Positions 1,767 to 37,919 of a stretch of DNA of 38,928 bases are shown piece after piece. The DNA is from a virus. Every line of letters starts with the position of its first letter. The stretch's first letter is position 1. The notes under the pieces were generated by a model. That model made no database searches and was not told the DNA's origin. It worked only from the letters and a program-made list of their open reading frames with translations. The DNA is taken from positions 1 to 38,928 of IMG/VR virus record IMGVR_UViG_3300042387_002375. One strand, written 5' to 3'. The translations under genes and the position numbers were made by a program.

Positions 1767-1902
1767 AATTTTATATAGTATTTTTTATTTTTGTTTGAGT
1801 TTTAGTTTAGCGTAGACTTAAAAAGTCCACATATTTACTTATCTAAAACGGCCACATTTTTTGCGGCTTGACACGAACCAAAACAAAAATATTTTTTTCT
1901 TT
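1767..1902. other. Intergenic region, 136 bases
   Basis: AT-rich gap between the two small neck-domain genes and the fibre gene. It holds the octamer at 1836-1843, a small inverted repeat (gactt/aagtc, 1815-1827) and a weak GC patch (GCCGC and GTGGC on the - strand, 1852-1868). No confident terminator or small gene is seen. Confidence 0.4.
1836..1843 (-). promoter_or_regulatory. Late-promoter-like octamer GATAAGTA, distant
   Basis: GATAAGTA on the - strand, preceded by TTTTA, identical to octamers at 4063, 35104 and 19635. It lies 69 bases before the fibre start at 1766. If used it would give a leader of about 60 bases containing the small inverted repeat GACTT/AAGTC (1815-1827). Confidence 0.45.
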
Positions 1903-2184
1903 TTAGAAAAATCCGCCATCCCGAACATTCAAATCTACCAAATCCTTGCCTGAAGTATAAATGATAGTGTTTTCCGGATCTGCAGAAGTTGTTATAACAA
2001 AAGTGTCGATGTCATCTAAATGAACACTTCCCGGCATGCTCGGATCAACAGACAAGCTCGCAGTATTTGCTCTAATCATTATGTTCGGAGCGTTTTCAGC
2101 AAGTGCTGACAAAGAATATAGCATATCGATTGCTTTTTTATGCTCTGCAGTAAAAGGCTTTCTGTTAAAAATATTGTTGCTCAT
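1903..2184 (-). CDS. Small protein repeating the C-terminal domain of the gp14-like neck protein
   Basis: A 93-residue protein. Its ATG overlaps the stop of the previous gene (TGATG at 2182-2186), so it is probably translationally coupled. The C-terminal half reads DTFVITTSADPENTIIYTSG and ends VRDGGFF. This matches the ends of the two upstream genes, TFVIQTSGKPDDDVYYTTN...TGGIV and FYEIKTLDNPNDVITYVTG...DGGTF. The N-terminal part (KPFTAEHKKAIDMLYSLSA) also resembles the neck protein's LFTQDYADLLLTMFSAT. It appears to be a free-standing copy of that domain. A virion or assembly role is inferred from the operon; no database family is recognised. Confidence 0.75.
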   Translation of the reverse strand: MSNNIFNRKPFTAEHKKAIDMLYSLSALAENAPNIMIRANTASLSVDPSMPGSVHLDDIDTFVITTSADPENTIIYTSGKDLVDLNVRDGGFF

Positions 2185-2525
2185 CAGAACGTTCCTCCAT
2201 CCATCAACATTAAGTCTTCTGCTCCAGAAAGTCCCGTAACATAGGTAATAACATCATTTGGATTATCAAGAGTCTTGATTTCATAAAACTCTTGAGTTGC
2301 TGTCCTGTCTACCAAGTATCTTCTCATAATAATTCCTTCATTATTTTCTAAGAATTCCCTTGTATATTCTGCAGAAGAAAGCAAAGCAGCCGTGGCAGTT
2401 GATTGATTCTCATAGAAAGGAACCGAAGGAGGACAAGGAACAAACGGAGCAACTGCGGGCGGAACATAATGATTCTCATGAGTTACTCCTCCGTAGTATC
2501 CGTATGGTTTTGATTTATTACTCAT
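2184..2525 (-). CDS. Small protein repeating the C-terminal domain of the gp14-like neck protein
   Basis: A 113-residue protein whose ATG overlaps the upstream stop by one base (TAATG at 2523-2527). A Tyr/Pro-rich N-terminus (HENHYVPPAVAPFVP) resembles the segment NHFIPPNPPECV of the gp14-like protein. The C-terminus (EFYEIKTLDNPNDVITYVTG, ending LMLMDGGTF) matches the ends of both neighbours. It therefore looks like a paralogue of roughly the last 118 residues of the neck protein. It may assemble with that protein at the head-tail joint, which is inference from synteny. No enzymatic motif is visible. Confidence 0.75.
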   Translation of the reverse strand: MSNKSKPYGYYGGVTHENHYVPPAVAPFVPCPPSVPFYENQSTATAALLSSAEYTREFLENNEGIIMRRYLVDRTATQEFYEIKTLDNPNDVITYVTGLSGAEDLMLMDGGTF

Positions 2526-3571
2526 TAAACAATGCCTCCTGTAAAGACTTCAAAAAGATTAATCGAAGACAAGTTTGTTGTATAATAGACGTCATCGTCT
2601 GGTTTTCCGCTTGTTTGAATAACAAATGTTCTTAGATTTCCATCAGAAGACAGCAGAGTTCTTGTCATGATTTCGTTTGTATGATTTGCAATATAAACTT
2701 GCTCAAGTGCCATGGCATCAATGTCAATAGCGCCTGTAGAAGTAGCTGAGAACATTGTGAGTAGCAAATCTGCATAATCTTGAGTAAACAGTTCTTGCTT
2801 CTGATAAGGTCCTGGAACTGCACTCAAACCAGTTGCAACTAGACCTTCAACACACTCAGGAGGATTTGGCGGTATAAAATGGTTTGGTGCTGTATCAAGT
2901 CCTGCATTATCTTGATCATAATAATCATAAATGCATTTTGCAGAATTTTGAACGGAATCTGGATATGGTTGGAAGAGTTCTTCTGGATTTGCTCCAAGAG
3001 CCAATCTTCCGTAATCTCCCACATCATTAATTTGCTTATTATTTGGACCAGTTTCAATTCCTGGCTCATAAGAATATTCATAGCGCTTACATTTGATATA
3101 CCAAACATAGTGGCCCATCAAAGCATTTGTCATCGGAAGGTACTCATCATCTCTTTCAGTAATCTCGTAGATTGGAGCGCTTCTTCCGCCAGGTCTATCT
3201 GCTCCATATTCTGTCAGCTGAATTAGATCTCCTGCCTTTGGCTCCATGCCACAGCCAATTCTATCATAAAAAGAAGATATGTGAACAACTGCTGTCATGT
3301 CGCAATCAGCCATAATGCCAAATTTTGAAAGCATCAAAGAATCGTTTGTAATATCAGTCAGCATTATCAACTCTTCAAACTTTCCGTATTTTGCTGTCGG
3401 ATCTTCCCCATAAAGAAAATTATGAGAAGTCAGAGTATAACCATGCGTAAAATAAGTAACAGAAGTGCCAAAGTGTTCAATCTGCTCCCTCCACCATTTT
3501 GAGTAGTTTTCCCGCTCATTGGCGTTGTTATTCTTGTTCAGATAACGAACTCTGTCCATTGTTTTTAGCAT
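2525..3571 (-). CDS. gp14: gp14-like neck (head-tail connector) protein
   Basis: The region after residue 20 follows the T4 gp14 pattern. A sequence around YFTHGYTLTSHNFLYGEDPT corresponds to the gp14 segment with LIFGED. Then come a hydrophobic strand with KFGIMADCDMTAVVHIS (gp14 has FGMQVQDEVTLSI), PKAGDLIQL (gp14 PKEGDLIYF) and PIYEIT (gp14 LFEI). T4 gp14 helps complete the neck that joins the DNA-filled head to the tail. This protein is longer (348 versus about 256 residues) because of an extra C-terminal region that recurs in the next two genes. The ATG at 3571 overlaps the upstream stop by 7 bases. A TTG at 3598 and an ATG at 3559 are alternatives, and none has a clear ribosome-binding site. 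Confidence 0.68.
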   Translation of the reverse strand: MLKTMDRVRYLNKNNNANERENYSKWWREQIEHFGTSVTYFTHGYTLTSHNFLYGEDPTAKYGKFEELIMLTDITNDSLMLSKFGIMADCDMTAVVHISSFYDRIGCGMEPKAGDLIQLTEYGADRPGGRSAPIYEITERDDEYLPMTNALMGHYVWYIKCKRYEYSYEPGIETGPNNKQINDVGDYGRLALGANPEELFQPYPDSVQNSAKCIYDYYDQDNAGLDTAPNHFIPPNPPECVEGLVATGLSAVPGPYQKQELFTQDYADLLLTMFSATSTGAIDIDAMALEQVYIANHTNEIMTRTLLSSDGNLRTFVIQTSGKPDDDVYYTTNLSSINLFEVFTGGIV

Positions 3572-4056: not shown

Positions 4057-4062
4057 TCAATT

Positions 4063-4070
4063 TACTTATC
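4063..4070 (-). promoter_or_regulatory. Late-promoter-like octamer GATAAGTA
   Basis: GATAAGTA on the - strand within TTTTTTGATAAGTAAATTGA, 6 bases before the ATG at 4056 and just downstream of the terminator at 4084-4115. It is the likely promoter for the neck-gene operon. Confidence 0.65.
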
Positions 4071-4083
4071 AAAAAATTTGAAC

Positions 4084-4115
4084 AAAAAAAGAGCCCCTGA
4101 TGGGGCTCTTTTGAC
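4084..4115 (-). terminator. Rho-independent terminator after the 314-aa gene
   Basis: A perfect GC-rich stem (agagcccc 4090-4097 and ggggctct 4102-4109) with loop TGAT, extended by A-T pairs. On the - strand it is followed by a run of seven T. It ends the transcript of the gene at 5080-4136 and separates it from the neck operon. Confidence 0.85.
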
Positions 4116-4135
4116 TTTTGGCATCTAATAAAAGA

Positions 4136-5080: not shown

Positions 5081-5089
5081 GTGTATTTT

Positions 5090-5097
5090 TATTTATC
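5090..5097 (-). promoter_or_regulatory. Late-promoter-like octamer GATAAATA
   Basis: TTAGATAAATAAAAA on the - strand, 9 bases before the ATG at 5080, in a 24-base gap between genes. The same extended form occurs at 19582 and 37912. Confidence 0.65.
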
Positions 5098-5104
5098 TAA
5101 TTTG

Positions 5105-8314: not shown

Positions 8315-8320
8315 TTAGAT

Positions 8321-8328
8321 TATTTAAC
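8321..8328 (-). promoter_or_regulatory. Late-promoter-like octamer GTTAAATA
   Basis: GTTAAATA on the - strand, 6 bases before the ATG at 8314. The same octamer occurs at 13197 (-) and 36925 (+), each just before a start codon. Confidence 0.55.
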
Positions 8329-11730: not shown

Positions 11731-11738
11731 TAATTAGT
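11731..11738 (-). promoter_or_regulatory. Weak late-promoter-like octamer ACTAATTA
   Basis: ACTAATTA on the - strand, 5 bases before the ATG at 11725. It departs from the core TAA[AG]TA by one base but keeps the usual spacing, and it resembles ACTAAATA at 21970. It could be chance in an AT-rich gap. Confidence 0.3.
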
Positions 11739-13196: not shown

Positions 13197-13204
13197 TATT
13201 TAAC
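13197..13204 (-). promoter_or_regulatory. Late-promoter-like octamer GTTAAATA
   Basis: GTTAAATA on the - strand, 11 bases before the ATG at 13185, downstream of the nrdB terminator hairpin. It would restart transcription for the structural cluster. Confidence 0.5.
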
Positions 13205-13217: not shown

Positions 13218-13250
13218 AAGTCTCACCAGATTGGTCGTCTGATGAGACTT
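13218..13250 (-). terminator. Hairpin terminator downstream of nrdB
   Basis: An 8-bp perfect inverted repeat (aagtctca 13218-13225 and tgagactt 13243-13250) encloses a mismatch, a 4-bp inner stem (caga/tctg) and a 7-base loop. On the - strand it is followed by TTTCCTTTTTC. It lies between the nrdB stop and the next promoter-like octamer, which is where a terminator is expected. Confidence 0.6.
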
Positions 13251-13276: not shown

Positions 13277-14344
13277 TTACAAACTAAATCCTTCAAATTC
13301 GCTTTCGTTGATGTCTGTGTTTCGAGCTCCAATCTTATACGAAGAAATTTCCGTTTCCTGAGGAGCAACTTGAACTTTGCTGGAGTCCATGTAGGAATCA
13401 AGCCATCCAGAAATTGGATTATCTTTTTGATTAAAAATCTTTTTATAACCCAAGGAGCGCAACCGGTTATCAGCAAGCCACTTACAATAACCTGACAAGG
13501 ATTCTTCATTCAAACCAAGCAAACTTCCTTTACTAAACAAATACTTTGCCCATTCAATTTCTTGCATAGTAGCTTCATAGTACAAATCATAAACCAAAGA
13601 GTCGTACTTCTTAACAACGTCCTGGAAACCTTCTTCTGGAACATCTCGCAGAATCTTAATCAAATTTTGTGTTACTGCAAAGTGCTGAGCTTCGTCTCTT
13701 TGAATGAGTTTGATAATTTTTGCATTACCTTCCATGCGACCTCTATAGCCAAAATAAAAAGAACAAGCAAATGATACATAAAATACCAGACCCTCCATAA
13801 CATTTGTTGAAAGAATGGCCTTATAAATTCTGTCTCGGATGTCATCAGAATTTGGATCTGCTCCAAGAAGTTGATCATAATTTGAACGAATGATTTCTTT
13901 TCTCTTCATGATTTCTTTATCAGCATAAATGGAATCAAAGAATTCTCCTGGCTTTGCAAACAAGTTTCGAAAAACCCATGAGTAGCTTCTTGAATGGATA
14001 ACTTCGAAGTCTGCCCATTTTGTCATACATGCTTCTAATTCCGAATTAGTAACAAATTCTCGAAGCGAAAGGATACTTCTACTCAGCATACTATCTCCAA
14101 GCGTTTGGAAGCGGATATTACTGTCAAAAACAAACCTTTCAGACTCTGTCAGTTCTTGATAGTCACTCTTATCTTTAATCAAAGTAACTTCTTCTGGTCT
14201 CCAGTGAAACTCGTCTTGCTTCAAATAAAGATCATCGAAGATTGGATATTTCAAAAGATCATATCGCTGCAGGCCGAGATCCTCACCAAGAAACAAAGGT
14301 TGAGTTAAGGGATTTACTGCTGTTTCGTTGAGTACAGTTTTCAT
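13277..14344 (-). CDS. nrdB: Ribonucleotide reductase class Ia, small (radical) subunit
   Basis: A 355-residue protein that aligns along its length with E. coli NrdB. It makes the tyrosyl radical that NrdA uses to reduce ribonucleotides for DNA synthesis. The di-iron ligands are all present: Asp84 (TLGDS), Glu114 and His117 (FEVIHSRSY), Glu184 (NVMEG), Glu218 and His221 (RDEAQH). Tyr121 of that second motif matches the radical Tyr122 of E. coli. The tail keeps the radical-transfer Tyr (SSYKIG) and an acidic, aromatic end (ESEFEGFSL) like the peptide that docks on NrdA. The ATG at 14344 lies 4 bases after the nrdA stop. A GTG at 14365 would overlap nrdA and is less likely. The enzyme looks fully functional. 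Confidence 0.97.
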   Translation of the reverse strand: MKTVLNETAVNPLTQPLFLGEDLGLQRYDLLKYPIFDDLYLKQDEFHWRPEEVTLIKDKSDYQELTESERFVFDSNIRFQTLGDSMLSRSILSLREFVTNSELEACMTKWADFEVIHSRSYSWVFRNLFAKPGEFFDSIYADKEIMKRKEIIRSNYDQLLGADPNSDDIRDRIYKAILSTNVMEGLVFYVSFACSFYFGYRGRMEGNAKIIKLIQRDEAQHFAVTQNLIKILRDVPEEGFQDVVKKYDSLVYDLYYEATMQEIEWAKYLFSKGSLLGLNEESLSGYCKWLADNRLRSLGYKKIFNQKDNPISGWLDSYMDSSKVQVAPQETEISSYKIGARNTDINESEFEGFSL

Positions 14345-14348
14345 AATT

Positions 14349-17300
14349 TTAAATTGTGCAAGCACCTCCAGAGCAAGAAGAATCTTCTTCCTTGTTCATC
14401 AGTTGCTCTTTGTCGTTATCGTTTGTGTTTGTATAATAAATTGTTTTGCCTCCCAAGCTATAATGGTGCATCATTTCTTTAATAACTTTAGAGTGTGGAA
14501 TCATTTTGTTTGGATAATGAGAATAGTCATAATAAAAATTCACAGACATTGCCATATCAGTAAACTTCTGAATAGCTGCTACGATGTTAAGATACCCGAT
14601 ATTATCCTTCATGTCAAATGCAATTGTGTATCTATTTTTCCATTGAGTTGCATTCGGAGCAATTACAGGAACTGTTGAAGCCTTTGATTTTTTATAGGTG
14701 ATCAAACTACGAATTGGTTCAAATCCGTTTGTGCTGTTTTGAATGACGGAACTGTTGTGAGCAATACAACCATTTTCTAGAGCATAATGGTGAACATTTG
14801 CTACTTCAATATCATAAGTTTGAACTTGTTCTGTCAATTTTGTTATTTTGGAAATCTTTGAAGAATTAGTCTGCAAGCAAACGATATTGTCCTCTTCTTT
14901 AAGATCTCTCACGCAAATCCAAGCATCAAATGATCCTTTACTAACAAGAAGTTTGTGGTTTCCTGTGAATTTGTAGCTTTTTCCGTCTTCGAATTCTATG
15001 TCATATGCGTCAGAAGAATTACCGTTATAATAAGCTCTCTCTACAATTTGATCTCCTTCAAGTGTTTTAACATAAAATGGTTTAGGAAGTTCGTACCAAC
15101 CAGGAACACCTTGCTCCTCAATGGACTTTGTATCCAAACCAGCTTTCGCAAAAAGATCTTCTAGTGCAAAAATTCCTTGTGGAGTTTGGATTCTTGTATC
15201 AAGAGCCTGACAAGACTCACATGGCATATGAGCAGAAGTAGTCGAGTTTCGCAAACCATATTGCAAAATATCTTTTCTCAAAGTCTCCCAATCCATCTTC
15301 AGAGGAGTAGTTACAATTGCATCGAGTTTGTCTTTTTTGTAATGATCAATTGGAAGAAGTCCTTTGGAATAAGTTGTTCTGTCAAACTTTTCACATTTTC
15401 CTTTTTCCTTAGCAAGCTCCATACTTGACTTCAAACAAAAGTATTGCTGCTTTTCCATAAAGTCTGCAACAAAGTTTGGAGCTTCTTTGTCTTCAAACTT
15501 CAAATTATTTTTGGCAAGAACTGCTGCAAGGTTTGTAATTCCGATGCCAAGGCTTCTTCTCTTTGTTGCAAAATTTTCAGCAGCCGGACAGAAGTATTCT
15601 TGGTAGTCAATAATTTCATCAAGCATGCGCACAGTAATATCACAAACTTTTTCAAATTCGTTATCAGAAGCAATTTCGAGCCAGTTAATAGCCGCAAGAA
15701 TACAAATACCAATTTCTGCGTCTTTATCTTCTAAAGACTTTAAAGGAACGATAGGGTGTGTTACTTCTTGGCAGTTATGAACAAGAATATTATTAGCAAA
15801 GAAGTTTTCTGTATTTCTTACGGTAATATCATAAACGGGCTCAACTTTCTGATATCTCGAAATCTTTGAAATTTTTGTTGGAGCATTAGTAATAAGAATA
15901 TCGTCTTGAACAAGATCTCGAGCAAGAACATAGCCTTTATTTTCTGTAAAGATTTTATGCTCTGGTGTGCACTTAACAATATTGCCTTTCTCGTCTTCGA
16001 TCTCGATGAGTTCAATCGATTCTCCGGTTTGAGCAAAAGCAGTAATTTCTGAATAAACGACTTGCTTTGAAGAAATATCATAAGACTTAACCTTCAAATC
16101 TTTGGAAGTCTTTACATAAAAATCCAAATCTTTCATTTGAACAGTTAGATTTTGTCCGTCTGTTTGAATATCGATCAGCGTGTCTCCAGTTACACACAAA
16201 TTTGACATTTGTACGGTATCTAACCAAGCAGAATGGCTATTAACATTATCAACATTGATAATATAAATTCGTCCAGTTTCGATGCGTTCTTTTGTAATCA
16301 AATCAAACAAATCACGAGCAGAAATAGTCTTCTTAAATTTCAAAGAAGAATCTTTCTCATACTTTACATAAAGTTCGTCAAACTCTTCTGTGCCAAATTT
16401 TTCAAAAAGATCTTTGCATTCATGAGACGAGAACAAAGTAATGTTTTCATTATTCAACCAGCGCTGATAAAACAACTTGGACATGCCAATAGAGTAATCA
16501 AGTTTGCGCACACGGTTTTCTTCTGTTCCTGCATTATTTTTCAGAACAACAATGTCTTCGATTTCATAATCAAAAACAAATACAGTTGTTGTTGCTGAAC
16601 CACCTCGAATGCCATTTTGGTGGCAGCTCTTGACGGTAGATTCAAAAACTTTCAAGAAAGGAATCTTGCCAGTATGAATAACATCTCCGTTGCGAATTGG
16701 AGCACCCAATGCTCTTACATGAGCAAAATTAAAGCCAATGCCATAACGATTAGCAGTTGCATGACCAATTGCTGAAACATTTGCAAGAATCGAAGCCATG
16801 GAATCATCTACTCCAGCAAGCAAGCAAGAAGCAAAGCTTTTAAGAGGAGTTCTGACGCCAGCCATAATCGGAGTTGGCAAATTAATCTTATGCTTGCTAA
16901 AATAGTTATAAGCTTTCTTTACATAATCCAAGCGTGTTTCTTTTGGATAATTGGCAAAAGCAATTGCAGCAATCAGAATATATGCAAACTGCGGAGTTTC
17001 AAAAACTTCCTTGGTCTTTCTGTTCTGCACAAGATATTTGTCGATTAGTTGTTTGATGCCTGCATATGTAAAAATAAAATCTCTGTCATGATCAATGAAC
17101 TCGTCAATCTTATTGAGTTCCTTTTCAGAATACAAATCAAGAATTTCAGAGGTATAAACGCCAGCAGTAACGTTCTTCTTAATCAAATCGATTAGCTTTG
17201 GAGGATTCTTGCCACCCCAAACGTTTTTTCTGAGTTGATAGGTAAGCAAACGAGCAGCAACATATTGATAGTTTGGAGTATCAATTGTGATCAAATTAGC

Positions 17301-17498
17301 AGCAGATTCAATGAGCACTTGATGAATTTCTTCGGTCGTAATTCCGTCTCTAATATTAATCTTTGCATTGATTTCAATATCTGATAAGCTGACATCCTTA
17401 ATGCCGTCAACAGCCCACTTGACTGTTTTGTTAATCTTATCAATTTTGAAAACTTCTTTTTCTTTTGACCGTTTGATCACTTGTATTTCTTTTTCCAT
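14349..17498 (-). CDS. nrdA: Ribonucleotide reductase class Ia, large subunit, with two mini-inteins
   Basis: The 1049-residue precursor contains inteins at 435-575 and 763-915. Spliced NrdA would be 755 residues, close to E. coli NrdA (761). Residues 1-95 form an ATP-cone. Active-site residues are present: Cys225 (SFASC), Asn433, Cys576 and Glu578 (N-L, then CQE after splicing) for the Asn437/Cys439/Glu441 set, and Cys599 (IGIC) for Cys462. The radical-path Tyr pair is at 1021-1022 (KTIYYT), and the C-terminal redox pair is Cys1042 and Cys1047 (CSGGAC). It reduces ribonucleoside diphosphates together with NrdB. Its ATG follows the previous stop by 5 bases and nrdB follows directly, so they are probably co-transcribed. 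Without splicing of intein 1, the thiyl-radical Cys cannot sit in the active site. Confidence 0.97.
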   Translation of the reverse strand: MEKEIQVIKRSKEKEVFKIDKINKTVKWAVDGIKDVSLSDIEINAKINIRDGITTEEIHQVLIESAANLITIDTPNYQYVAARLLTYQLRKNVWGGKNPPKLIDLIKKNVTAGVYTSEILDLYSEKELNKIDEFIDHDRDFIFTYAGIKQLIDKYLVQNRKTKEVFETPQFAYILIAAIAFANYPKETRLDYVKKAYNYFSKHKINLPTPIMAGVRTPLKSFASCLLAGVDDSMASILANVSAIGHATANRYGIGFNFAHVRALGAPIRNGDVIHTGKIPFLKVFESTVKSCHQNGIRGGSATTTVFVFDYEIEDIVVLKNNAGTEENRVRKLDYSIGMSKLFYQRWLNNENITLFSSHECKDLFEKFGTEEFDELYVKYEKDSSLKFKKTISARDLFDLITKERIETGRIYIINVDNVNSHSAWLDTVQMSNLCVTGDTLIDIQTDGQNLTVQMKDLDFYVKTSKDLKVKSYDISSKQVVYSEITAFAQTGESIELIEIEDEKGNIVKCTPEHKIFTENKGYVLARDLVQDDILITNAPTKISKISRYQKVEPVYDITVRNTENFFANNILVHNCQEVTHPIVPLKSLEDKDAEIGICILAAINWLEIASDNEFEKVCDITVRMLDEIIDYQEYFCPAAENFATKRRSLGIGITNLAAVLAKNNLKFEDKEAPNFVADFMEKQQYFCLKSSMELAKEKGKCEKFDRTTYSKGLLPIDHYKKDKLDAIVTTPLKMDWETLRKDILQYGLRNSTTSAHMPCESCQALDTRIQTPQGIFALEDLFAKAGLDTKSIEEQGVPGWYELPKPFYVKTLEGDQIVERAYYNGNSSDAYDIEFEDGKSYKFTGNHKLLVSKGSFDAWICVRDLKEEDNIVCLQTNSSKISKITKLTEQVQTYDIEVANVHHYALENGCIAHNSSVIQNSTNGFEPIRSLITYKKSKASTVPVIAPNATQWKNRYTIAFDMKDNIGYLNIVAAIQKFTDMAMSVNFYYDYSHYPNKMIPHSKVIKEMMHHYSLGGKTIYYTNTNDNDKEQLMNKEEDSSCSGGACTI
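14754..15212 (-). other. NrdA intein 2 (153-residue mini-intein)
   Basis: Precursor residues 763-915. It starts CQALDTRIQTPQG (block A), has a Thr-x-x-His block B (YKFTGNHKLLV), and ends TYDIEVANVHHYALENG then CIAHN (blocks F and G) before extein Ser916. It interrupts the sequence equivalent to E. coli ALMPSET/SSQ. There is no room for a LAGLIDADG or HNH homing endonuclease, so it is a splicing-only element that cannot move by itself. Splicing chemistry appears complete: Cys1, His-Asn end, Ser+1. Confidence 0.93.
15774..16196 (-). other. NrdA intein 1 (141-residue mini-intein)
   Basis: Precursor residues 435-575. It starts CVTGDTLIDI (block A), has block B VKCTPEHKIFT with Thr-x-x-His, and ends VYDITVRNTENFFANNILVHN-like blocks F and G, with His-Asn before extein Cys576. 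It sits exactly before the Cys equivalent to E. coli Cys439, the catalytic thiyl-radical residue, which doubles as the +1 nucleophile for splicing. No homing endonuclease domain is present. Confidence 0.94.
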
Positions 17499-19581: not shown

Positions 19582-19589
19582 TATTTATC
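19582..19589 (-). promoter_or_regulatory. Late-promoter-like octamer GATAAATA
   Basis: TTTAGATAAATAAAAAT on the - strand, 5 bases before the ATG at 19576. It forms one side of a divergent promoter region with the + strand octamer at 19635. Confidence 0.65.
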
Positions 19590-19634: not shown

Positions 19635-19642
19635 GATAAGTA
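19635..19642 (+). promoter_or_regulatory. Late-promoter-like octamer GATAAGTA
   Basis: GATAAGTA on the + strand, 6 bases before the ATG of the gp25-like gene at 19649. It is the likely promoter for the baseplate operon. Confidence 0.65.
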
Positions 19643-20149: not shown

Positions 20150-21981
20150 CAAACGAAACAACAAACGATTTTCCTCTTCCAAAAGACACATATGCTGCTT
20201 TTGATGCAATCTCTTTGCGCAATCTGATTATTGAGAGATTGAATGACAAAGGAGTCTTCACCGATCAAAATTATATAGGCTCCAATCTTGCTGCTATTAT
20301 TGATATTGTTTCCTATTCTTTCAATACCTTAATTTATTATCTAAACAGAACCAGCACGGAATCTACTTTTACAGAAGCTCAGCTTTATGAAAACATTAGC
20401 AGAATTGTTAAGCTTCTTGATTATAAGCCAGTTGGCTATCAAACTTCTACTCTAACCTTTCAGTGTTCTGCTGACAATAGAGACAATAGCTTTGATTTAG
20501 TTAATGGCGTTTATACAATTCCGAGATATTCTTATCTAACAATTGGAAACATTCCTTTTTCTTTTAATGAAGACGTTTCGTTTTCAGTTAGCCAGCAAAG
20601 CGTTCTAGAGCTAACAGACATTACAAACAGAAAATTGTTATTTCAGGGTGTTTACAGAGAAAATCCAATACACACAGCTTCTGGAGATTCTAATGAAATA
20701 GTTACGATAAACGTTGCAAATGCTCTTGTTGATCACCTCAACATCGACGTTTATGTTTATGAGATTTCTCAAAATAGATGGGTTCAATACAGAGAAACAC
20801 CAAGCTTGTATACTGAACAGCCTTCAACGAGAAGTTATGAAAAGCGCTTGAATCCAAACTTCTTGTATGAAATTACATTCGGAGACGGAGTAAACGGAAG
20901 AAGATTGCAGCAAGGAGATCGCGTTGCAATTTACTTCTTGCAGAGTTCTGGAGATCTTGGAGTTATCGGGCCAAGAACTTTGAGCGACCCTCAGCTCGAT
21001 AGATCTATTTTCAATACGACTGCTTATGAAGCAATTCTTTCGGATGTAAAGCAAGATCAACAATCCTTTTTGTTGACAGCTCCTCTGTTTCAAAGATTAT
21101 TTTTTGATAACATTTCCGGATCCACTGTACCAAAGAACGTTGAAGATGCAGATAGCATTAGAAAAAATGCTCCTGCAAATTTCAAAAGCCAGTACCGTCT
21201 CGTTACGATTTCAGACTACGAAACGTTTATCAAAACTAACTTCAACAACTTTATCGGAGACATTAAGGCATTTAGCAATTGGGATTATACTTCAAAGTAT
21301 TTAAAATACTTCAATGATATTCAAGTAAGTCCAACTGCTTTTCGTCAAATCATGTTGAACCAGGTGCTTTATTCAGATGCTTGCAATTTTAATAATGTTT
21401 ATTTGTGCGGTGTTCCAAAAGTTGCACAGGGTTCTACTTTAAAATATTTGCTGCCTGCTCAAAAAGAATTAATTATTTCAAATCTTCAGCCTTTAAAAAT
21501 GTTGACAACCGAGACAACGTTTGTTGATCCAATCTTCAAGGCACTAACATTTGGCGTAAAGTCTGTTGATTCTGAAGTTGTTGTTAGCGATGCAGACTTT
21601 ACTCAAGTAGAATTTGCAAAAACTCCAGGAAATAACAGAAACAACCAGAGCATTATTGCAGACATTGTTAATGTGTTCCAACAATTCTTCAGTCCTCTTC
21701 GACAAGAAATTGGCGGCATGATTGATCATAGCTTGTTAACAAGCAATATTTTGTCAATTGACGGAATTTCTTCAATTACTACAAGAAGACTAGACACAAA
21801 TGAATCGACTGAAGGTCTTTCGTTTTATTTGTGGAATCCAACATATCCAGACCTTGATAAAAAAGCTGTCGTCAATAATCTTATTCTCAGTCCTTTTGAA
21901 TTTTTGTACTTCCAGGATCTACAAAATGTTGCAAGCAAGTTTGTTGTAATAGAAAGTCCGTACGTAAACACTAAATATTAA
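20146..21981 (+). CDS. gp6: gp6-like baseplate wedge protein
   Basis: A 611-residue protein that follows the layout of T4 gp6 (660 residues). The N-terminal helix region with SLRNLIIERLNDKG and GSNLAAIIDIVSYSFNTLIY matches gp6 (NLIEWLNG, GSRLNVLCDLLAYNTLYI). A beta region follows with FLYEITFGDGVNGRRLQQGD (gp6 has FYFGEG). Then comes a segment around RLVTISDYETFIKTNF (gp6 RCVTATDYDTFVSERF). In T4, gp6 dimers form the inner ring of the baseplate and drive its change of shape. Gene order with the gp25-like gene supports the call. Confidence 0.92.
   Translation: MTNETTNDFPLPKDTYAAFDAISLRNLIIERLNDKGVFTDQNYIGSNLAAIIDIVSYSFNTLIYYLNRTSTESTFTEAQLYENISRIVKLLDYKPVGYQTSTLTFQCSADNRDNSFDLVNGVYTIPRYSYLTIGNIPFSFNEDVSFSVSQQSVLELTDITNRKLLFQGVYRENPIHTASGDSNEIVTINVANALVDHLNIDVYVYEISQNRWVQYRETPSLYTEQPSTRSYEKRLNPNFLYEITFGDGVNGRRLQQGDRVAIYFLQSSGDLGVIGPRTLSDPQLDRSIFNTTAYEAILSDVKQDQQSFLLTAPLFQRLFFDNISGSTVPKNVEDADSIRKNAPANFKSQYRLVTISDYETFIKTNFNNFIGDIKAFSNWDYTSKYLKYFNDIQVSPTAFRQIMLNQVLYSDACNFNNVYLCGVPKVAQGSTLKYLLPAQKELIISNLQPLKMLTTETTFVDPIFKALTFGVKSVDSEVVVSDADFTQVEFAKTPGNNRNNQSIIADIVNVFQQFFSPLRQEIGGMIDHSLLTSNILSIDGISSITTRRLDTNESTEGLSFYLWNPTYPDLDKKAVVNNLILSPFEFLYFQDLQNVASKFVVIESPYVNTKY
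21970..21977 (+). promoter_or_regulatory. Late-promoter-like octamer ACTAAATA
   Basis: ACTAAATA lies 6 bases before the ATG at 21984 and overlaps the end of the gp6-like gene. The TAAATA core and spacing fit the set; the second base is unusual. It may be a secondary promoter in the operon. Confidence 0.4.
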
Positions 21982-25192: not shown

Positions 25193-25200
25193 AATAAGTA
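25193..25200 (+). promoter_or_regulatory. Late-promoter-like octamer AATAAGTA
   Basis: AATAAGTA lies 9 bases before the GTG start at 25210, in the 40-base gap between the 1061-residue and 1842-residue genes. Confidence 0.5.
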
Positions 25201-28200: not shown

Positions 28201-30738
28201 TATGATCCAACTGTTACAGTATTGACCGGCACAAATCTCATGACAGTTCCTGTTACTGGCTTGTCAGCAACTTATTCGTTTTATTTAAATTTAACAGGAA
28301 CATACAATTTTGAAATTTCTGCTCAATTAAACAGTGGTTTAGATTTTTATTTTAAACAAGTTCCGACATTGACTGCTATTCCTCCAATTGTTTATTGGGC
28401 GCCTGGTTCCACTTTCGTAACATTTTCCCCAACATTGACTGGAACATACGCTACAGATGTTTCAGCAAAGCTTGTTAACGGAGCAGATTATTATTTTAAT
28501 ACAATTCCGTTGATTACAGCAGTTCCAAACCAAGTTGTTGAAAAAGTTCCTCTTCAAACAAATCATCCGGTCACAAGTTACGCAATTCAACAAACTCTTG
28601 TTCCTGTTCCTAGCAAAGACGTTAAGCCTTACTGGGCAGTACTTAATATAAATCAGCAAGACCCAACAAGAAACGAAACGGGATATCAAAAAAATTATAT
28701 CGATGGATATTTGCCAGACAATTTTCCGAGGATTTCGCCAATCGAATTTAATTTTGGAGACATAATTGATTATGAAAGAAAAGGTCCTAGATTTGTTTGG
28801 AAGCAACCGCTGACATACAGTGAATTTGAAGACTCGGAGCAATGGATGCAAATTACTCAAGAAACTTTGAGTAGTACAGACAGAGAGCCTGATCAAATAG
28901 TTACAGCAACGACTGATCCGACGAATATTGTTCTCAGTAACTTTATTGACGGAAAACCTGTAGAAATAACATATATTGCAAAAAACAGCTTTACTTGGCA
29001 AGTATCAACAGAGTTTATCAACCCTCTTTCTGACATTCAAAAAAATATCACTACGGATTTGCTTTTTGGTACTGTCGAACCATGGAATGTTCTTTCTAAT
29101 AGATTTTATCCTACAATTGCAACAGTTCCGACAACAGAAAATCTTTATTCAGAGAAAGAATCTGGAGGATTTTTTACACCTACGAAGCTTGGTGCCTCTC
29201 AATACATTAACGATAACTTCACGCCAATAATTTCAGGAAATTATTATCAACAATCTTTATTGTCAGAAGATACCTCAAAACATATTGGAGGACGAGGATT
29301 AACGAAGACAGAGCAAGATACAATTTATGATTGGGAGGAAAATAATCAGTGGCTTAAAGAACCTTCTACTGCAAACCAGCTGGCCGGTGCTGTTAAGAAA
29401 TCTTTAACAAAGTCCTTGCAAACGTTTGTTCCTTATCAGAACACAGTTGATCAAAAACAATTTGGTTTAATAACTCCAACAAGCAGAACATCGCCATGGG
29501 GCGGACCTGCTGGAGATCAGTGGACAGATAAGCTCAACGAACCGAAAGGATTTACTGGCGTTCGCAACGTTTCTGCTTGGTCTGACAAACAGATACTAAA
29601 GCAAAATCAAAAAGTAATGGATAGCTGGGTTACTGATATTTTTGGAAATCAATATGGCTTATTTAAATCAATTGATTCAGACACAGATATTTATCACAGA
29701 GCTCAGATTGGAGGACAGCTATGGACAAGAACGAACGATCAAATTGTAAAGCCAGGTTATGTTGCGCTGTCAGCTGTTATCGAACCTTTCAAGTCGATTA
29801 ATACAAGCATTTATCAACAACTAACAGGAGAAGGAATTACTAATGTTGATTGTTTCTTTGATACGTTGATGATACAAACTTCAAGCATTGCACTATTTTC
29901 AAAACTTCGTTATAATTACGAAAGTGCTGCTATTGAAGCTTTAATTGATAATACAAGATTTAAATTGCTCACTTCTACGAACTTTGTAGAAACGAAAGTT
30001 GGTCAGAATTGGTTTTTTCCTACAGAAAAGAGCGTCTTTAATGTATTTACTACAATATCCGCTAACCAACTTCTTCCAGAACTCTTTGAGCTGGATCTCG
30101 TCAACAATACGTTCATCAAACAATTTCCTTATAGTCCGCAGCAACAGGCTTCTGTAATCAGTAGTTTGAGCAGCTTGAGCGTACAGTCAGTTGATGTTGG
30201 TTTATTGACATATAGCAAACAAACTCAGCAATTTTTAATATCCATTCCAGGAAAGCTAACAAATAACGAACAATTTCTTGTTGATGTTATATTGAATGAC
30301 AGAGAGCAGCTCGACATCGAATCGATAATAATTTATACAGATACGAAGCACCCAGCTATACCGTTTCCTAAAAAAATAACTATCACGAATGATTATTTTT
30401 ATGACGAAGTTCCTTTCGAGGTTGGAATAACATCAACAATCGTTGTTCCGACAAGAGATACTGTCGTCGTTTCTATTTCCGCAATTAACAACCCAACATA
30501 TTTTGAATTAATTAACTTTACTTCAAACGTTACTGCCGCAAATGACGGAACGTTTTCGGCCTTTTTTAACCAAACAGGACTCTATCAAGTCAATTATAAA
30601 GTTGGAAATGATTTTGGTTACAACATGGGCTGTTTAACATTGTCTGCAGTCGACAGAGAAGATGTAATATTGCTCAATGGTTATGATGGCTTCTTGAAGC
30701 TGAATGGTTATAACGGAAGATTCGTCATCAAACAATAA
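25210..30738 (+). CDS. Giant virion structural protein, 1842 residues
   Basis: The largest gene in the window, with a GTG start. The N-terminal 160 residues are helical and charged (LLRQKYLYLLSQLQLFFSDE, AIPYFAKKLKTIALYYLKLR, RYNLVGTETGL). This pattern recurs in virion proteins next to gp6 in marine T4-like phages. The rest is mostly beta. Residues 437-458 (ETTLIASGALAGSTPSVADK) match the 823-residue - strand protein. Residues 1028-1075 and 1076-1123 are a 48-residue duplication (LTGTYNFEISAQLNSG and LTGTYATDVSAKLVNG). Residues about 1438-1490 (QWTDKLNEPKGFTGV, SWVTDIFGNQYGLFK) form a conserved-looking block. The C-terminus ends in an Ig-like strand set and a short LNGYDGFLKLNGYNG repeat. It is probably a baseplate component or fibre anchor; exact role unknown. 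Confidence 0.8.
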   Translation: MENIFLKQLASRDIITSQEDINAPFSFVEWKQRRLNYAESDIVYHYNQYVIDWFTRNKSKPVSQKFLLRQKYLYLLSQLQLFFSDEEKNQWYNKVNLADEKELLLAIPYFAKKLKTIALYYLKLRKKLKNTKLRYNLVGTETGLAQEIQNRLLEVFSSLNTELPPEIQNNLPQFEDLQNNFTVQIEQLYDDSVYFDRDPAVALSAYYDPFHQATADFFATKGLTLSSDEWIFNSFNVPVTADLNVFVSQLTGNVFEQSDANSYGSFIQKFLGESKFTTAFASASSTTVLSDVLILTGTNFFYYPYGPSSTTLLSGILPSVALSSINIPGSTSSTVISGSDVIYVKVGDEIKKSWLKYSDYLTSNRMLEADLVDKTTSFIFPFPGYGLSAEDVEWTGPSLSSTPEYQFLVDPYKTVVNDAYWNQSLPSDATITVPINETTLIASGALAGSTPSVADKIYLRERSEDAQSASTIKQAAWLFKPQKTNIPISITTSASAFLWPFHHVSSASNSIPNYVKSSQGFFKEVCHPTDINQLDVPFAVASNEFQYAEKVFKLQKYDDLTIDAIECCWLSGCSLSADDYAWTTQGGFSCYLSAGKTTKFVWTGPDNTPIDQVFTYIDHSPNCPFVTLSADTDNPSSCACKQVYYSPFGHSGATFADNNARADYIAVDTENNLDSFDSGSWRDSLSSTSNTSEEFAWFKTNENNSWGNGSWVATNGQTPFNLKTGKSYFYKRTASRDKTFYPPYIVNFKYAQNNTKWIEARQLATGDWISTDKPSNLKLYPGDIIKWEKQPVNTFYQLSTISYDAFPERRNSAWCTHDYLPLSGSIWPASPDPNPEGPETIIIWPAEQQNLGQDRDLQFPLYGNEPITFPDVEEYYWWRITRTPYADQYTNNYTITALSSDPFTGEHEQARCRTGTVWTSHSGSLANGYFDKLPYQNHITVSWPSTYPERFGAICYPSITAENDPQYPQFFEDPVLIDDITKIHWWKIISPLSAYYVYDPTVTVLTGTNLMTVPVTGLSATYSFYLNLTGTYNFEISAQLNSGLDFYFKQVPTLTAIPPIVYWAPGSTFVTFSPTLTGTYATDVSAKLVNGADYYFNTIPLITAVPNQVVEKVPLQTNHPVTSYAIQQTLVPVPSKDVKPYWAVLNINQQDPTRNETGYQKNYIDGYLPDNFPRISPIEFNFGDIIDYERKGPRFVWKQPLTYSEFEDSEQWMQITQETLSSTDREPDQIVTATTDPTNIVLSNFIDGKPVEITYIAKNSFTWQVSTEFINPLSDIQKNITTDLLFGTVEPWNVLSNRFYPTIATVPTTENLYSEKESGGFFTPTKLGASQYINDNFTPIISGNYYQQSLLSEDTSKHIGGRGLTKTEQDTIYDWEENNQWLKEPSTANQLAGAVKKSLTKSLQTFVPYQNTVDQKQFGLITPTSRTSPWGGPAGDQWTDKLNEPKGFTGVRNVSAWSDKQILKQNQKVMDSWVTDIFGNQYGLFKSIDSDTDIYHRAQIGGQLWTRTNDQIVKPGYVALSAVIEPFKSINTSIYQQLTGEGITNVDCFFDTLMIQTSSIALFSKLRYNYESAAIEALIDNTRFKLLTSTNFVETKVGQNWFFPTEKSVFNVFTTISANQLLPELFELDLVNNTFIKQFPYSPQQQASVISSLSSLSVQSVDVGLLTYSKQTQQFLISIPGKLTNNEQFLVDVILNDREQLDIESIIIYTDTKHPAIPFPKKITITNDYFYDEVPFEVGITSTIVVPTRDTVVVSISAINNPTYFELINFTSNVTAANDGTFSAFFNQTGLYQVNYKVGNDFGYNMGCLTLSAVDREDVILLNGYDGFLKLNGYNGRFVIKQ

Positions 30739-30741
30739 ATA
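30734..30741 (+). promoter_or_regulatory. Late-promoter-like octamer AATAAATA
   Basis: AATAAATA overlaps the TAA stop of the 1842-residue gene and ends 5 bases before the ATG at 30747. Confidence 0.5.
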
Positions 30742-30746: not shown

Positions 30747-31334
30747 ATGGCAGACAAAAGAATTACAGAATTATCAGCAGTAAGTTCAATTAACTTTGAC
30801 AACGATTTGCTGCCAATCGTTAATGAAGGCTTTACAAAAAAAATTACAATCAGAGCTTTTAATGAAGCACTCGAAACAATTTCCTATCAGGGAACTGATT
30901 TAAAAGACCTTTCTGCTAACTGGCAAAGCACATACGGAATTGTTAGTGCAAATTCAGAAAGCTGGCAAAATGCTTATACTGCTGTTGCTCCAAACTCTGC
31001 TAATTGGACAAGTGCTTACTCAACAGTCCAAGAAAACTCTGCCACTAATTGGAGCTATCAAGGAACAGATTTAAAGGACCTTTCTGCTAATTGGGAGAAT
31101 ACATATACCACTGTCAGTATGAAGTCTGCTGATTGGGATGCTGCTACTTTTAACCAAGAATTAACATATACAGAACAATTAACAGGACTGAATGCATGCT
31201 TGAGAATTACTGTGAATGGTTCAACTAGATATTTGCGCTTGTTCGAAATTGGACCAGAAATATTCGAGTTCGGAACAGAGGATGCTTTGGATGTAGTAAT
31301 TACAGAAGCTAGCGAAACAATATTTTTCGATTAA
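30747..31334 (+). CDS. Short tail fibre protein with Trp-spaced repeats
   Basis: A 195-residue protein. The N-terminus (MADKRITELSAV, then DLLPIVNEGFTKKITIRAF) is a typical fibre attachment segment, nearly shared with the next gene. Residues 45-130 are repeats of about 15 residues in which Trp, Tyr and Asn recur (DLSANWQSTYGIVSANSESW, ANWTSAYSTVQENSA), with a second copy of SYQGTDLKDLSANW. The last 50 residues form a beta cap (LNACLRITVNGSTRYLRLFE). The short length and missing tip suggest a small fibre or whisker, or one that carries another fibre. It is probably co-transcribed with its neighbours. Confidence 0.75.
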   Translation: MADKRITELSAVSSINFDNDLLPIVNEGFTKKITIRAFNEALETISYQGTDLKDLSANWQSTYGIVSANSESWQNAYTAVAPNSANWTSAYSTVQENSATNWSYQGTDLKDLSANWENTYTTVSMKSADWDAATFNQELTYTEQLTGLNACLRITVNGSTRYLRLFEIGPEIFEFGTEDALDVVITEASETIFFD

Positions 31335-31337
31335 ATA
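31330..31337 (+). promoter_or_regulatory. Late-promoter-like octamer ATTAAATA
   Basis: ATTAAATA overlaps the TAA stop of the previous gene and ends 5 bases before the ATG at 31343. Confidence 0.5.
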
Positions 31338-32527: not shown

Positions 32528-32550
32528 TAGTCAGCAACAATTAAAATTCG

Positions 32551-32577: not shown

Positions 32578-32579
32578 TG

Positions 32580-35096: not shown

Positions 35097-35103
35097 CTTG
35101 GCT

Positions 35104-35111
35104 TACTTATC
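35104..35111 (-). promoter_or_regulatory. Late-promoter-like octamer GATAAGTA
   Basis: GATAAGTA on the - strand, 7 bases before the ATG at 35096, in the short gap after the tail fibre assembly gene. Confidence 0.6.
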
Positions 35112-35127
35112 AATCATTGAAGCTTTG

Positions 35128-35499: not shown

Positions 35500-35501
35500 A
35501 A

Positions 35502-36905
35502 CTATGTTCCTAATGCTATCCACGTAATTCCTATTGGATCTGGATTGGTATTTACAAACTCATCAGAAAACCATGTAAACGTTGAAGTTGTCCAACTAAC
35601 TACCTGAGCCATTCTTTGAGCTCCAACCCCAGAAGGATTCCCGTCTGATGTATAGGTGCCGACAACAACGTTAAATGTTTGTGCGAACGTTGTTGGAAAA
35701 CTAACGGTTGCTGCATTATTAGCTCCTGGTGCAGCGTTATTTGATGTGCTTCCCCATTGAATGAGTAGCCCATTTGGTAATTTTGTCCAACCGTTTGCAG
35801 CTAAAGATTGAGTGAATCCTCCCGCACTAATAATAACATCCGTTGTTCCGTCTGTTACGGAAATTCCAGAACCAGCTCTAATTTTTTTAAATTGAAGATT
35901 GGACCCGCTTTTAGTTGTTGCGGGAACGATTGAGCCTTCTCCAGATGCTCCTGCAATGTTTTGAGAATCTACTATAGCATTGGGAGCGCTTATTGTAAGC
36001 GTATCGCTTGCTTCAGAAACCGTAATATTCGTTCCTGTTGCAGCAATTGACTTAAATCTCAAATTAGTGCCAAAAACGTCTTTGTATACACCAATACCAG
36101 TTCCGACAGTAGATCCTCCTGTTATTCCTCCACTCCCTCCTCCTGCAGCATTAATTGTAACCGAATTGGCAGCTTCAGAAAGAGTAACGTTCGTTCCGGC
36201 TTTAATTCTTTTAAATTGCAAATCCACTCCAGACTTCTGAGAGAATAAACCAGAGCCATCAGAAGATGTTCCGAGATTAGAGGCAGTATTTGCTTCTCCT
36301 CCTCCGACACCCGTCGAGTCAATTTGAATATCATTTGGATTATTTGTAACAATAACACCAGCACCAGCTTTAATTGTTTTAAATTGTAGAGTGTTTCCAA
36401 CGTTCGTAGTATAAACCTTCCCTACTCCTGTTCCGACATTGGTTCCGCTCGTCGGATCTGTGGAAGAAATAATAACATTGTCTCCAACCGTCGTTACTGT
36501 TGTGTTAGAGCCTCCTACAATAGTTCTTAAAGAAAGAGGAGTTGATATAGTGTCTTTTAAAATTATTCCGCTTCCGCTTCCAACATTGGTTGATGAGATT
36601 GTTGCTAAAGTTGTTACAGAAATTTTTACCGTATCGCTATCTTCAACGACAGAAACATTATTTGAACCGCTTGTAATTTTTTTAAATTGCAAAGTATCAT
36701 TAACAATTTGTTTATAAACACCAATTCCGCTTAGTCCGATGTTTGTGGCAGAAAGGGTGTTTGCAGAAAGAGGGGCAAAGTAAGAGGCAGAAAGTTGACA
36801 CAAAGCATTATCCAGAACTTCAAAGTTGCTGTTAATTTTTGGAAGAGAATTGCCAATGCATTCATTGCGATCAATTTCTTCCATACTGTTATAACAAAAA
36901 GCCAT
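35502..36905 (-). CDS. Receptor-binding tail fibre with six beta repeats and a terminal tip
   Basis: A 467-residue protein from the ATG at 36905. The N-terminus includes KINSNFEVLDNALCQLSA, common in fibres. Residues 56-363 contain six repeats of about 48 residues, each built on GVYK...TLQFKKI.SG..NVSV...DTVKIS (the 'LQFK.I.AG.N..V' pattern). Residues 370-467 are a tip domain starting NGWTKLPNGLLIQWGS, with SFPTTFAQTFNVVVGTYT and ending DPIGITWIALGT. That form is well known at the C-terminus of phage fibres and binds the host surface. A Tfa-like gene follows. A TTG start at 36920 lies inside the promoter octamer and is rejected. Confidence 0.9.
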   Translation of the reverse strand: MAFCYNSMEEIDRNECIGNSLPKINSNFEVLDNALCQLSASYFAPLSANTLSATNIGLSGIGVYKQIVNDTLQFKKITSGSNNVSVVEDSDTVKISVTTLATISSTNVGSGSGIILKDTISTPLSLRTIVGGSNTTVTTVGDNVIISSTDPTSGTNVGTGVGKVYTTNVGNTLQFKTIKAGAGVIVTNNPNDIQIDSTGVGGGEANTASNLGTSSDGSGLFSQKSGVDLQFKRIKAGTNVTLSEAANSVTINAAGGGSGGITGGSTVGTGIGVYKDVFGTNLRFKSIAATGTNITVSEASDTLTISAPNAIVDSQNIAGASGEGSIVPATTKSGSNLQFKKIRAGSGISVTDGTTDVIISAGGFTQSLAANGWTKLPNGLLIQWGSTSNNAAPGANNAATVSFPTTFAQTFNVVVGTYTSDGNPSGVGAQRMAQVVSWTTSTFTWFSDEFVNTNPDPIGITWIALGT

Positions 36906-36910
36906 GAAGT

Positions 36911-36918
36911 TATTTATC
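36911..36918 (-). promoter_or_regulatory. Late-promoter-like octamer GATAAATA
   Basis: GATAAATA on the - strand, 5 bases before the ATG at 36905. It is paired with the + strand octamer at 36925, only 6 bases away, in a 33-base divergent gap. Confidence 0.65.
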
Positions 36919-36924
36919 AAACAA

Positions 36925-36932
36925 GTTAAATA
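36925..36932 (+). promoter_or_regulatory. Late-promoter-like octamer GTTAAATA
   Basis: GTTAAATA on the + strand, 6 bases before the ATG at 36939. It faces away from the - strand octamer at 36911. Confidence 0.6.
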
Positions 36933-36938
36933 ATTGCA

Positions 36939-37904
36939 ATGAAACGTAGTTATGATCTAGAAAGTATTTTTAGCAAAATATCCCAAGGAAATTCTTTGTT
37001 CAATTCGTTTTTAGAGCAAACTTTTACCTTCTTCTGGAATAAAAAGAAAACGACTTATCAAACAACATCAAAGAATTCCGTTGAGTATGGAGTTGGTTGG
37101 ACTTATTCCAACGGACATCCTTTATCAGCAGATCCTTCTCAAATTATTTGGAAAATTACTCCAGACGAACACACGGTTGGTTATGAAGGAAATCAAACGG
37201 CAATGGCCATCGGAAAAGTTTCAACAACTCCAACGACTACATGGTACACAGATCATATTTTTGACAATGATAAATTTTTTCATGATTATTCGTCAGGAGA
37301 CGTATTTTTGAATGATGGAAGCTTAACTCTTAAAGGATCAAATGAAAACATTAATCTAAGTGCTGCAAATACAGGAATAAGAATTCTGAATGGCAATATT
37401 ACTTCCGCACAAGGGAATATTCATTTAAGTTCAGGAAATATATTATTGAATGGAGCAAACAAAGGAATTACAGTATCTTCTTCGGATGGTTACATAACAA
37501 CTCCACTACTTTCAGCAATTTTGTTAACTGCTACAAATGTCATTCAAAGAGGAACGCATACAAAGCAAACGGTTGATTTAGGAACATATTCAATAACCCA
37601 AAATTTAACGATAAGTGTTCCTTGTAGCACGTCAGATTATTTTTATATAGAGTTTACAGGAACAACTGGGGTTACATTATACACAAAAACTTTTAATTTT
37701 CAAAACGTTCCTTTAAATTATTATCAAATTGAACTAGAGATTACTTCAAGCGATGATACGAATTTGCAATGGCCTTCTGGAATAACTTGGAGAAACAATT
37801 CTTTGTTTGGTCAAACTTCTTCTGGTCAAAGAACATATCTTGTTACTTTAAAGACAAGAGACAAAGGTTTAAATTGGCTAGCCTCTTACGATACATATTT
37901 TTAA
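36939..37904 (+). CDS. Fibre-like or adhesin-like structural protein
   Basis: A 321-residue protein. The N-terminal 45 residues are helical (SIFSKISQGNSLFNSFLEQT). The middle (residues 120-190) has a short-strand, Gly/Asn/Ser-rich pattern (DGSLTLKGSNENINLS, NTGIRILNGNITSAQG, NIHLSSGNILLNGANKG) typical of beta-helical fibre parts. The C-terminal 120 residues form a beta sandwich-like segment (SDYFYIEFTGTTGVTLYT, YQIELEITSSDD). I recognise no named family. Its divergent position from the receptor-binding fibre and its late octamer suggest a virion appendage, perhaps a second adhesin. Confidence 0.68.
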   Translation: MKRSYDLESIFSKISQGNSLFNSFLEQTFTFFWNKKKTTYQTTSKNSVEYGVGWTYSNGHPLSADPSQIIWKITPDEHTVGYEGNQTAMAIGKVSTTPTTTWYTDHIFDNDKFFHDYSSGDVFLNDGSLTLKGSNENINLSAANTGIRILNGNITSAQGNIHLSSGNILLNGANKGITVSSSDGYITTPLLSAILLTATNVIQRGTHTKQTVDLGTYSITQNLTISVPCSTSDYFYIEFTGTTGVTLYTKTFNFQNVPLNYYQIELEITSSDDTNLQWPSGITWRNNSLFGQTSSGQRTYLVTLKTRDKGLNWLASYDTYF

Positions 37905-37911
37905 ACTTTTA

Positions 37912-37919
37912 GATAAATA
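37912..37919 (+). promoter_or_regulatory. Late-promoter-like octamer GATAAATA
   Basis: TTTAGATAAATAAAATAT on the + strand, 6 bases before the ATG at 37926. It has the same extended form as 5090 and 19582. Confidence 0.65.

Follow-up and report, generated by a model that had tools for sequence, protein, structure and literature searches.

Octamers at the gene starts of the window

The stretch of DNA analysed here (the window) is the 38,928-base virus record IMGVR_UViG_3300042387_002375, probably a fragment, and we describe an octamer with the core NNTAA[AGT]TA that abuts many of its start codons. The window encodes T4-type baseplate wedge proteins and a class I ribonucleotide reductase, and several of its late genes stand in tandem, 2-14 bases apart (Table 1). 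Counted on both strands, RWTAARTA occurs 17 times, a total that is not above chance (shuffle mean 18.1); 13 of the 17 sites lie on the coding strand, 5-11 bases 5' of a start codon. With the gap taken as the number of bases between the octamer end and the start codon, the core NNTAA[AGT]TA (53 sites on both strands) stands at gap 5-11 before 15 of the 27 window starts (chance 0.007 per start; binomial P 5e-26). This agrees with a first reading of the sequence (the original prediction), in which octamers on the coding strand were said to end 5-11 bases before starts. Five gaps are of 5 bases, six of 6, one of 7, two of 9 and one of 11, so that eleven, not ten as first counted, are of 5-6 bases; the single gap of 7 was correct, and the two near-match octamers, at 11731 and 21970, fit the pattern.

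The claim that almost every structural gene carries such an octamer was too strong, as downstream members of overlapping groups have none. The 12 octamer-less starts include those of nrdA and nrdB, those of later genes in tandem groups, and 18833 (inside a 61-residue open reading frame, ORF), and 11 of them lie inside the preceding ORF or at most 5 bases from it. The twelfth, 1766, has its octamer 69 bases away, immediately past a terminator-like hairpin, and the gene would have a leader. The Shine-Dalgarno (SD) motif AAGGAG before 18061, offered as a contrast to the octamer starts, sits inside an overlapping upstream ORF. For the ORF listed as 35502-36920, a start at ATG 36905 is more likely, which gives an octamer gap of 5, and both boxes of the divergent starts 36905 and 36939 fit in the 33 bases between them. 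No sigma70 region 2 was detected in the window.

Table 1. Octamers and anchor genes of the window (gaps in bases).
Feature	Coordinates	Strand	Position relative to genes and remarks
Octamer GATAAGTA	1836..1843	-	69 bases 5' of start 1766; hairpin 1851-1867; predicted leader about 64 nt
Octamer GATAAGTA	4063..4070	-	gap 6 to ATG 4056; intrinsic terminator (stem 4087-4112) just upstream
Octamer GATAAATA	5090..5097	-	gap 9 to ATG 5080
Octamer GTTAAATA	8321..8328	-	gap 6 to ATG 8314
Variant octamer ACTAATTA	11731..11738	-	gap 5 to ATG 11725
Octamer GTTAAATA	13197..13204	-	gap 11 to ATG 13185; terminator-like stem 13218-13250 upstream
Octamer GATAAATA	19582..19589	-	gap 5 to ATG 19576; divergent with the gp25 gene
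Octamer GATAAGTA	19635..19642	+	gap 6 to gp25 ATG 19649
Octamer ACTAAATA	21970..21977	+	gap 6 to ATG 21984
Octamer AATAAGTA	25193..25200	+	gap 9 to GTG 25210
Octamer AATAAATA	30734..30741	+	gap 5 to ATG 30747; stop codon of preceding gene inside octamer
Octamer ATTAAATA	31330..31337	+	gap 5 to ATG 31343; stop codon of preceding gene inside octamer
Octamer GATAAGTA	35104..35111	-	gap 7 to ATG 35096
Octamer GATAAATA	36911..36918	-	gap 5 to likelier ATG 36905
Octamer GTTAAATA	36925..36932	+	gap 6 to ATG 36939
Octamer GATAAATA	37912..37919	+	gap 6 to ATG 37926
Baseplate wedge genes gp25 and gp6	19649-20149 and 20146-21981	+	T4-type; anchor for finding relatives
nrdB and nrdA	13277..17498	-	early-type, without octamer; nrdA with intein splicing domain

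Spacing and gene class among relatives

Relatives were collected by four gp6 scans of viral contigs, which gave at least 202 loci, some of them sharing a contig (the last scan contributed the best 80 of 108), and 14 related contigs were retrieved at full length. From 110 representatives chosen by gp6 similarity, 92 were kept as the SD-less set, and L067 was dropped (no octamers, very long branch). The SD-user set comprised 17 representatives and G005 (18 loci in all, of which six have just 3-6 starts), hand-assigned from their SD content: G005, G009, G010, G011, L053, L060, L146, L147, L148, L209 and smaller ones. Both sets were picked by SD content, and the box gap played no part. Gene starts came from our own ORF caller (longest ATG, with GTG/TTG as fallback) and are predicted and uncurated; identical 40-base upstreams were counted once, and related sequences are not independent. 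The core TAA[AGT]TA was used for the window count, divergent pairs and terminators, and TAA[AG]TA for clade gaps, the SD cross-count, late and early genes, purines, gp25 GTG starts and noncoding-upstream counts. Varying sets of the T4-type genes gp4, gp6, gp13-gp25, DNA polymerase, gp41, gp44, gp46, gp47, uvsW and uvsX were found in eight related contigs and the window. Isolates are only distantly related: against the phage database, gp6 identity was 21-25% among the matches listed (20 of 286), gp23 identity to cyanophages and single-cell marine viruses was 32-34% among the matches listed (30 of 2494), and a 1069-residue protein had no match.

In the SD-less clade, NNTAARTA stands at gap 5-8 before 374 of 1623 starts, compared with a mean of 28.7 (maximum 36) in dinucleotide-shuffled upstreams. 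Internal ATG codons, the control named in the original prediction, carry it at this gap far less often clade-wide (26/6665 in-frame, 71/24107 out-of-frame), and the prediction withstood this comparison. The counts rise abruptly, from 14, 5, 6, 9 and 9 at gaps 0-4 to 164, 109, 59, 42, 63, 41 and 33 at gaps 5-11, and the count at gap 0 comes partly from a conserved ORF end upstream of gp44. The TAATTA variant behaves similarly, with 28 cases at gap 5 and a mean of 2.6 at other gaps among octamer-less starts of the clade.

For the first transcribed base (+1), RNA polymerase favours A or G. The late box of T4 begins at -13 (excerpts of PMC2988020), which places +1 five bases past the box, and if this geometry holds and +1 may not fall inside coding sequence, gap 5 would be the closest possible spacing. 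The step from 9 to 164 is located where T4 geometry sets +1 on the start codon. Purines peak at octamer+6, where they were found in 81% of T4 cases (n=31) and 85% of SD-user cases (n=116), though in the latter 84% were found at +8 too; in the SD-less set they made up 75% at gap 10-14 (n=137) and 62% at gap 15-50 (n=181). GTG starts of gp25 occur only at gap 5 (14 of 18 there, and 0/51 at gaps 6-14), which, given the preference of the polymerase, fits a +1 on the first base of the start codon, with the caveat that this one gene family supplies 14 of the 18 GTG starts at gap 5. If +1 is box+6, then, of the 638 octamer starts with gap 5-35 in the SD-less set, 164 would lack a leader altogether, 374 would have one of at most 3 nt and 552 one of at most 9 nt, and the corresponding numbers for SD users would be 5, 11 and 33 of 106.

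The box is also specific to a class of genes. At gap 5-14 it precedes 121 of 249 late homologues and 2 of 126 early ones, both of the latter nrdA (Fisher 1e-24). Late genes without a box at this gap are mostly gp6 (80/90), gp4 (13/13), gp23 (15/15) and some gp25 genes (13/82). Where noncoding DNA before a start amounts to 0-4 bases, the box is present in 55 of 572 cases; for all other starts the count is 497 of 1051. When divergent pairs 10-80 bases apart were inspected, outward-facing boxes were present on both sides in 61/120 SD-less pairs and 1/16 SD-user pairs. An intrinsic terminator lies just upstream of 14 of 624 octamer starts (0-1 in five shuffles), and in six of these the T-run stops 10-14 bases short of the ATG. 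The window holds one of the 14 cases; those in L031, L032, G002 and G012 look like one gene family by eye. A looser terminator scan of the window added further stems, with a total in the first 20 kb (8 against 11.9 expected) that is not above chance.

A gp55-like sigma factor (phrog_234) was identified in 5 of 16 records (G001, G002, G003, G004 and G006; E 4e-16 to 4e-30), all of them SD-less and five of the six largest among the 16 searched; no match was found in the window, a fragment, or in the other 10 records. Together with the preference for late genes, the divergent pairs and the few octamers directly after terminators, this supports the assignment as a late promoter. In G001, the sigma gene (L078:4826-5893, minus strand) has an insertion of about 150 residues in the conserved sigma core, which is intein-like by eye and has no Pfam match.

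SD use, early genes and host

The original prediction had noted a scarcity of SD sites at octamer starts. In the SD-less group such sites are rare at every kind of start, late or not. One of the comparisons of SD content defined its sets by octamer presence or absence, and only its SD signal is used here. In the SD users, the box lies at 14-35 in 46 SD-positive and 31 SD-negative starts and at 5-8 in 1 and 10, respectively, whereas in the SD-less set it lies at 14-35 in 1 SD-positive and 105 SD-negative starts and at 5-8 in 6 and 368. SD-using relatives mostly keep the late box roughly 10 to 25 letters further upstream. In T4 (150 kb examined), the box is most often 21-30 bases before the start, with SD sites between; it is at least 12 bases away in P-SSM2 (40 kb), mostly far and sometimes near in Mosig, and at gaps 12-37 in S-PM2 (30 kb, mostly replication genes).

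Some octamer-less genes seem to follow a similar arrangement with a different promoter. TATAAT was found 78 times in octamer-less SD-less upstreams (shuffles 51, maximum 59), 29 of them at gaps 5-14, and TTGA stands at spacer 15-17 in 20 of 53 TATAATs at gap 4-12, compared with 2% of 1936 coding TATAATs at spacer 15-19. The starts with such near sigma70-type boxes include gp44, DNA polymerase and gp41 homologues; the arrangement is found in a minority of the 985 octamer-less starts. As transcription begins about seven bases past TATAAT, genes with these predicted boxes would be leaderless or nearly so. Among the early-type genes, the window nrdA (14349-17498, minus strand; 1049 residues) matches the intein splicing profile PF14890 in three stretches, and two insertions were seen by eye.

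The host was sought by several routes. A gp6 alignment pattern searched in 84,980 species genomes gave 221 pattern matches, none confirmed, the tRNA-Gly of G002 gave 0 matches, and phage-encoded bS21 was found in 0 of 16 records. A Bacteroidota host, as proposed for one Far-T4-like genome in excerpts of PMC7198788, was unsupported, since its promoter motif TAHHTTTG occurred 21 times in early upstreams and 19.4 times in shuffles. G003 carries a tmRNA gene (L093:7028-7454) with an unusually long predicted tag of 33 residues (ARAGORN), and six tRNA genes with encoded CCA close to one end of contig G006 (L130:2582-3623) are possible host markers. In the window, three consecutive proteins (1903-3598, minus strand) end in the similar short motifs DGGFF, DGGTF and TGGIV, and the Gly-Gly codons of these tails create SD-like GGAGG before two of the next starts.

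Interpretation, alternatives and meaning

We consider it highly probable that the octamers are late promoters of the T4 type whose mRNAs are leaderless or nearly so, in an SD-independent host, with a sigma70 analogue for some early genes. NNTAA[AGT]TA would be the promoter box bound by a T4-type late sigma factor (the gp55 homologue), set so that +1, at box+6, falls on the start codon or a few bases before it. The late mRNAs would then have no leader or a leader of a few nucleotides and be translated as such, which host ribosomes independent of SD pairing would allow, and some early genes would follow the same rule with promoters of the type TTGANN-N16-TATAAT. At the sequence level, this reading is supported by the motif, its spacing, its late specificity, the gp55 homologues of relatives, the spacing in SD users and the geometry of divergent pairs and terminators. 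The leaderless or near-leaderless mRNAs of the original prediction gain support from the step at gap 5 and the purine peak at octamer+6.

Several observations weigh against this reading or narrow it. None of 16 records matched the co-activator gp33 (phrog_254) at E 0.1, although this profile matched nowhere and the protein is small and divergent, so that its absence from these partial genomes is not established; gp45, which the original prediction had proposed to look for along with gp33 and gp55, was found in 2 of 16 records (again small divergent proteins and partial genomes), and the gp55 homologues have no obvious C-terminal clamp motif by eye. Any coupling to a sliding clamp would thus be hypothetical; the clamp profile PF02916 gave 0/15 and was silent in all controls too, and is uninformative. 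Octamer-less starts have an upstream terminator about equally often (8/410), which means that terminators are not special to octamers. The absence of a near box in all 15 SD-less loci of gp23, the major capsid gene, is a consistent exception with a leader, and because several of these genes carry SD-like AAGGAG, otherwise rare in the group, the ribosomes may not be wholly SD-blind; the gp23 upstream stretches look conserved among relatives by eye. On the gp6 tree (85 rows: representatives with at least 7 starts and G005; a separate SD threshold of 25%), 2 changes suffice for the SD label, so the association of SD use with spacing rests on one or two events. Since P-SSM2 is SD-poor (5/43 starts SD-positive) yet keeps its box distant, SD loss alone does not force the abutting arrangement. 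A clear purine peak is missing from Mosig and P-SSM2 taken together (62% at +6, 69% at +9, n=42), and the gap is at least 7 in 365 of the 638 octamer starts, which makes short leaders commoner than none. For the early promoters, TATAAT is nearly as frequent on the reverse strand of early upstreams (70, with 78 forward and 51 in shuffles).

An alternative raised in the original prediction makes the octamer a signal for the initiation of translation. It could then be a Kozak-like, A/U-rich context recognized by an SD-blind ribosome, on mRNAs whose 5' ends lie further upstream. Such a preference is known from SD-less Flavobacterium, where A is favoured at -3, -6, -12 and -13 (excerpts of PMC6847099), and an octamer at gap 5 spans -6 to -13; moreover, SD sites are rare in the clade and some downstream cistrons, with 0-4 noncoding bases before them, do carry the box. 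However, a translational context should be present irrespective of expression class, and both the early genes of the same genomes and most downstream cistrons, which need translating too, are without it. At gaps 5-8, moreover, TAAATA occurs 255 times, its one-offset copy ATAAAT 135 times and each of the other 13 hexamers of the same composition at most 80 times. On these grounds we rejected it as the main explanation. In SD users and in T4, this box mostly lies at least 14 bases from the start, and close divergent pairs leave scant room for another promoter. Taken together, a translation signal is very improbable.

The octamers could also be real late promoters while translation proceeds mainly from longer read-through transcripts, so that the short leaders matter little. 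The tandem arrangement of late genes, where internal promoters could be supplementary, speaks for this possibility, but about half of the close divergent pairs have boxes on both sides without same-direction transcription upstream, and a terminator directly precedes some octamers; we judge it no likelier than a translation signal. Finally, a by-product of AT-rich intergenic DNA and of TAA stops before starts might be suspected, given that the motif contains TAA and that its total in the window is not above chance. This is contradicted by the shuffled upstreams, and the early starts of the same genomes have no octamer. In addition, alignment on the octamer gives T at +2 in 58-66% of cases whatever the gap class, and at +6 the purine peak persists with the start codon further away. 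Such an origin is extremely improbable.

Compared with known systems, the proposed T4-type late promoters abutting the start codon have several familiar features. With T4 late promoters (TATAAATA, recognized with gp55, gp33 and gp45) they have in common the TAAATA core, late specificity, a gp55 homologue and the purine peak at box+6, and the 8-bp TATA box of the T4 consensus is apparently present before late genes as the TAA[AG]TA core. The boxes of T4-like cyanophages (NATAAATA) have the TAAATA core as well. In contrast to both, the box here stands right before the start codon, often as a variant with TAAGTA or TAATTA, and the gp33 search gave no match. Far-T4 phages (Roux et al. 2015, PMC4360716) likewise have T4-type structural genes and come from aquatic contigs; in excerpts of that paper, the T4 core transcription-regulation genes were not detected, whereas relatives of the window have gp55 homologues and late-type boxes. 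In the first 35 kb of the cultured Far-T4 phage RM378 of Rhodothermus, the pattern was not found (35 starts, with just 3 octamers no more than 60 bases from them, at gaps of 6, 14 and 40). Zheng et al. (2011, PMC3160421, in excerpts) took a TA-like box some 10 bases upstream of a start codon as the mark of a leaderless gene; their genes are cellular and use a housekeeping sigma, unlike the phage genes here with an apparent late sigma and a sigma70-type promoter. Excerpts of the AR9 paper (PMC5312081) describe phage transcripts as "often leaderless" and place the 5' ends of late phiKZ transcripts inside a TATG motif, while AR9 itself has leaders of 26-491 nt. F. johnsoniae is SD-free, as here, but its leaders are 33 nt long on average and it uses the promoter TAHHTTTG (PMC6847099, in excerpts). 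Among titles and abstract beginnings of the open-access literature, with most subscription papers outside, we found none that describes late promoters of the T4 type directly at start codons.

In conclusion, the kind of element is known, namely the T4 late promoter, and what is unusual is its placement, together with the fact that some sigma70-type promoters in these phages are placed alike. We think it somewhat more probable than its opposite that, early and late in infection, the whole lineage depends largely on mRNAs with no leader or almost none, made from sigma70-type promoters early and gp55 promoters late, with late promoters 10-25 bases further upstream where SD is used. If so, promoter position would be an evolvable trait tied to the translation system of the host. 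No phage products are made in larger amounts than the late structural proteins, and accounts of well-studied bacteria usually call leaderless translation weak; here, leaderless SD-free translation would support the mass production of structural proteins. This widespread uncultured aquatic T4-related group and its SD-using relatives would offer a natural comparison for the co-evolution of promoter placement and translation initiation, and box spacing would give a handle, readable from sequence alone, on the translation type of the host.

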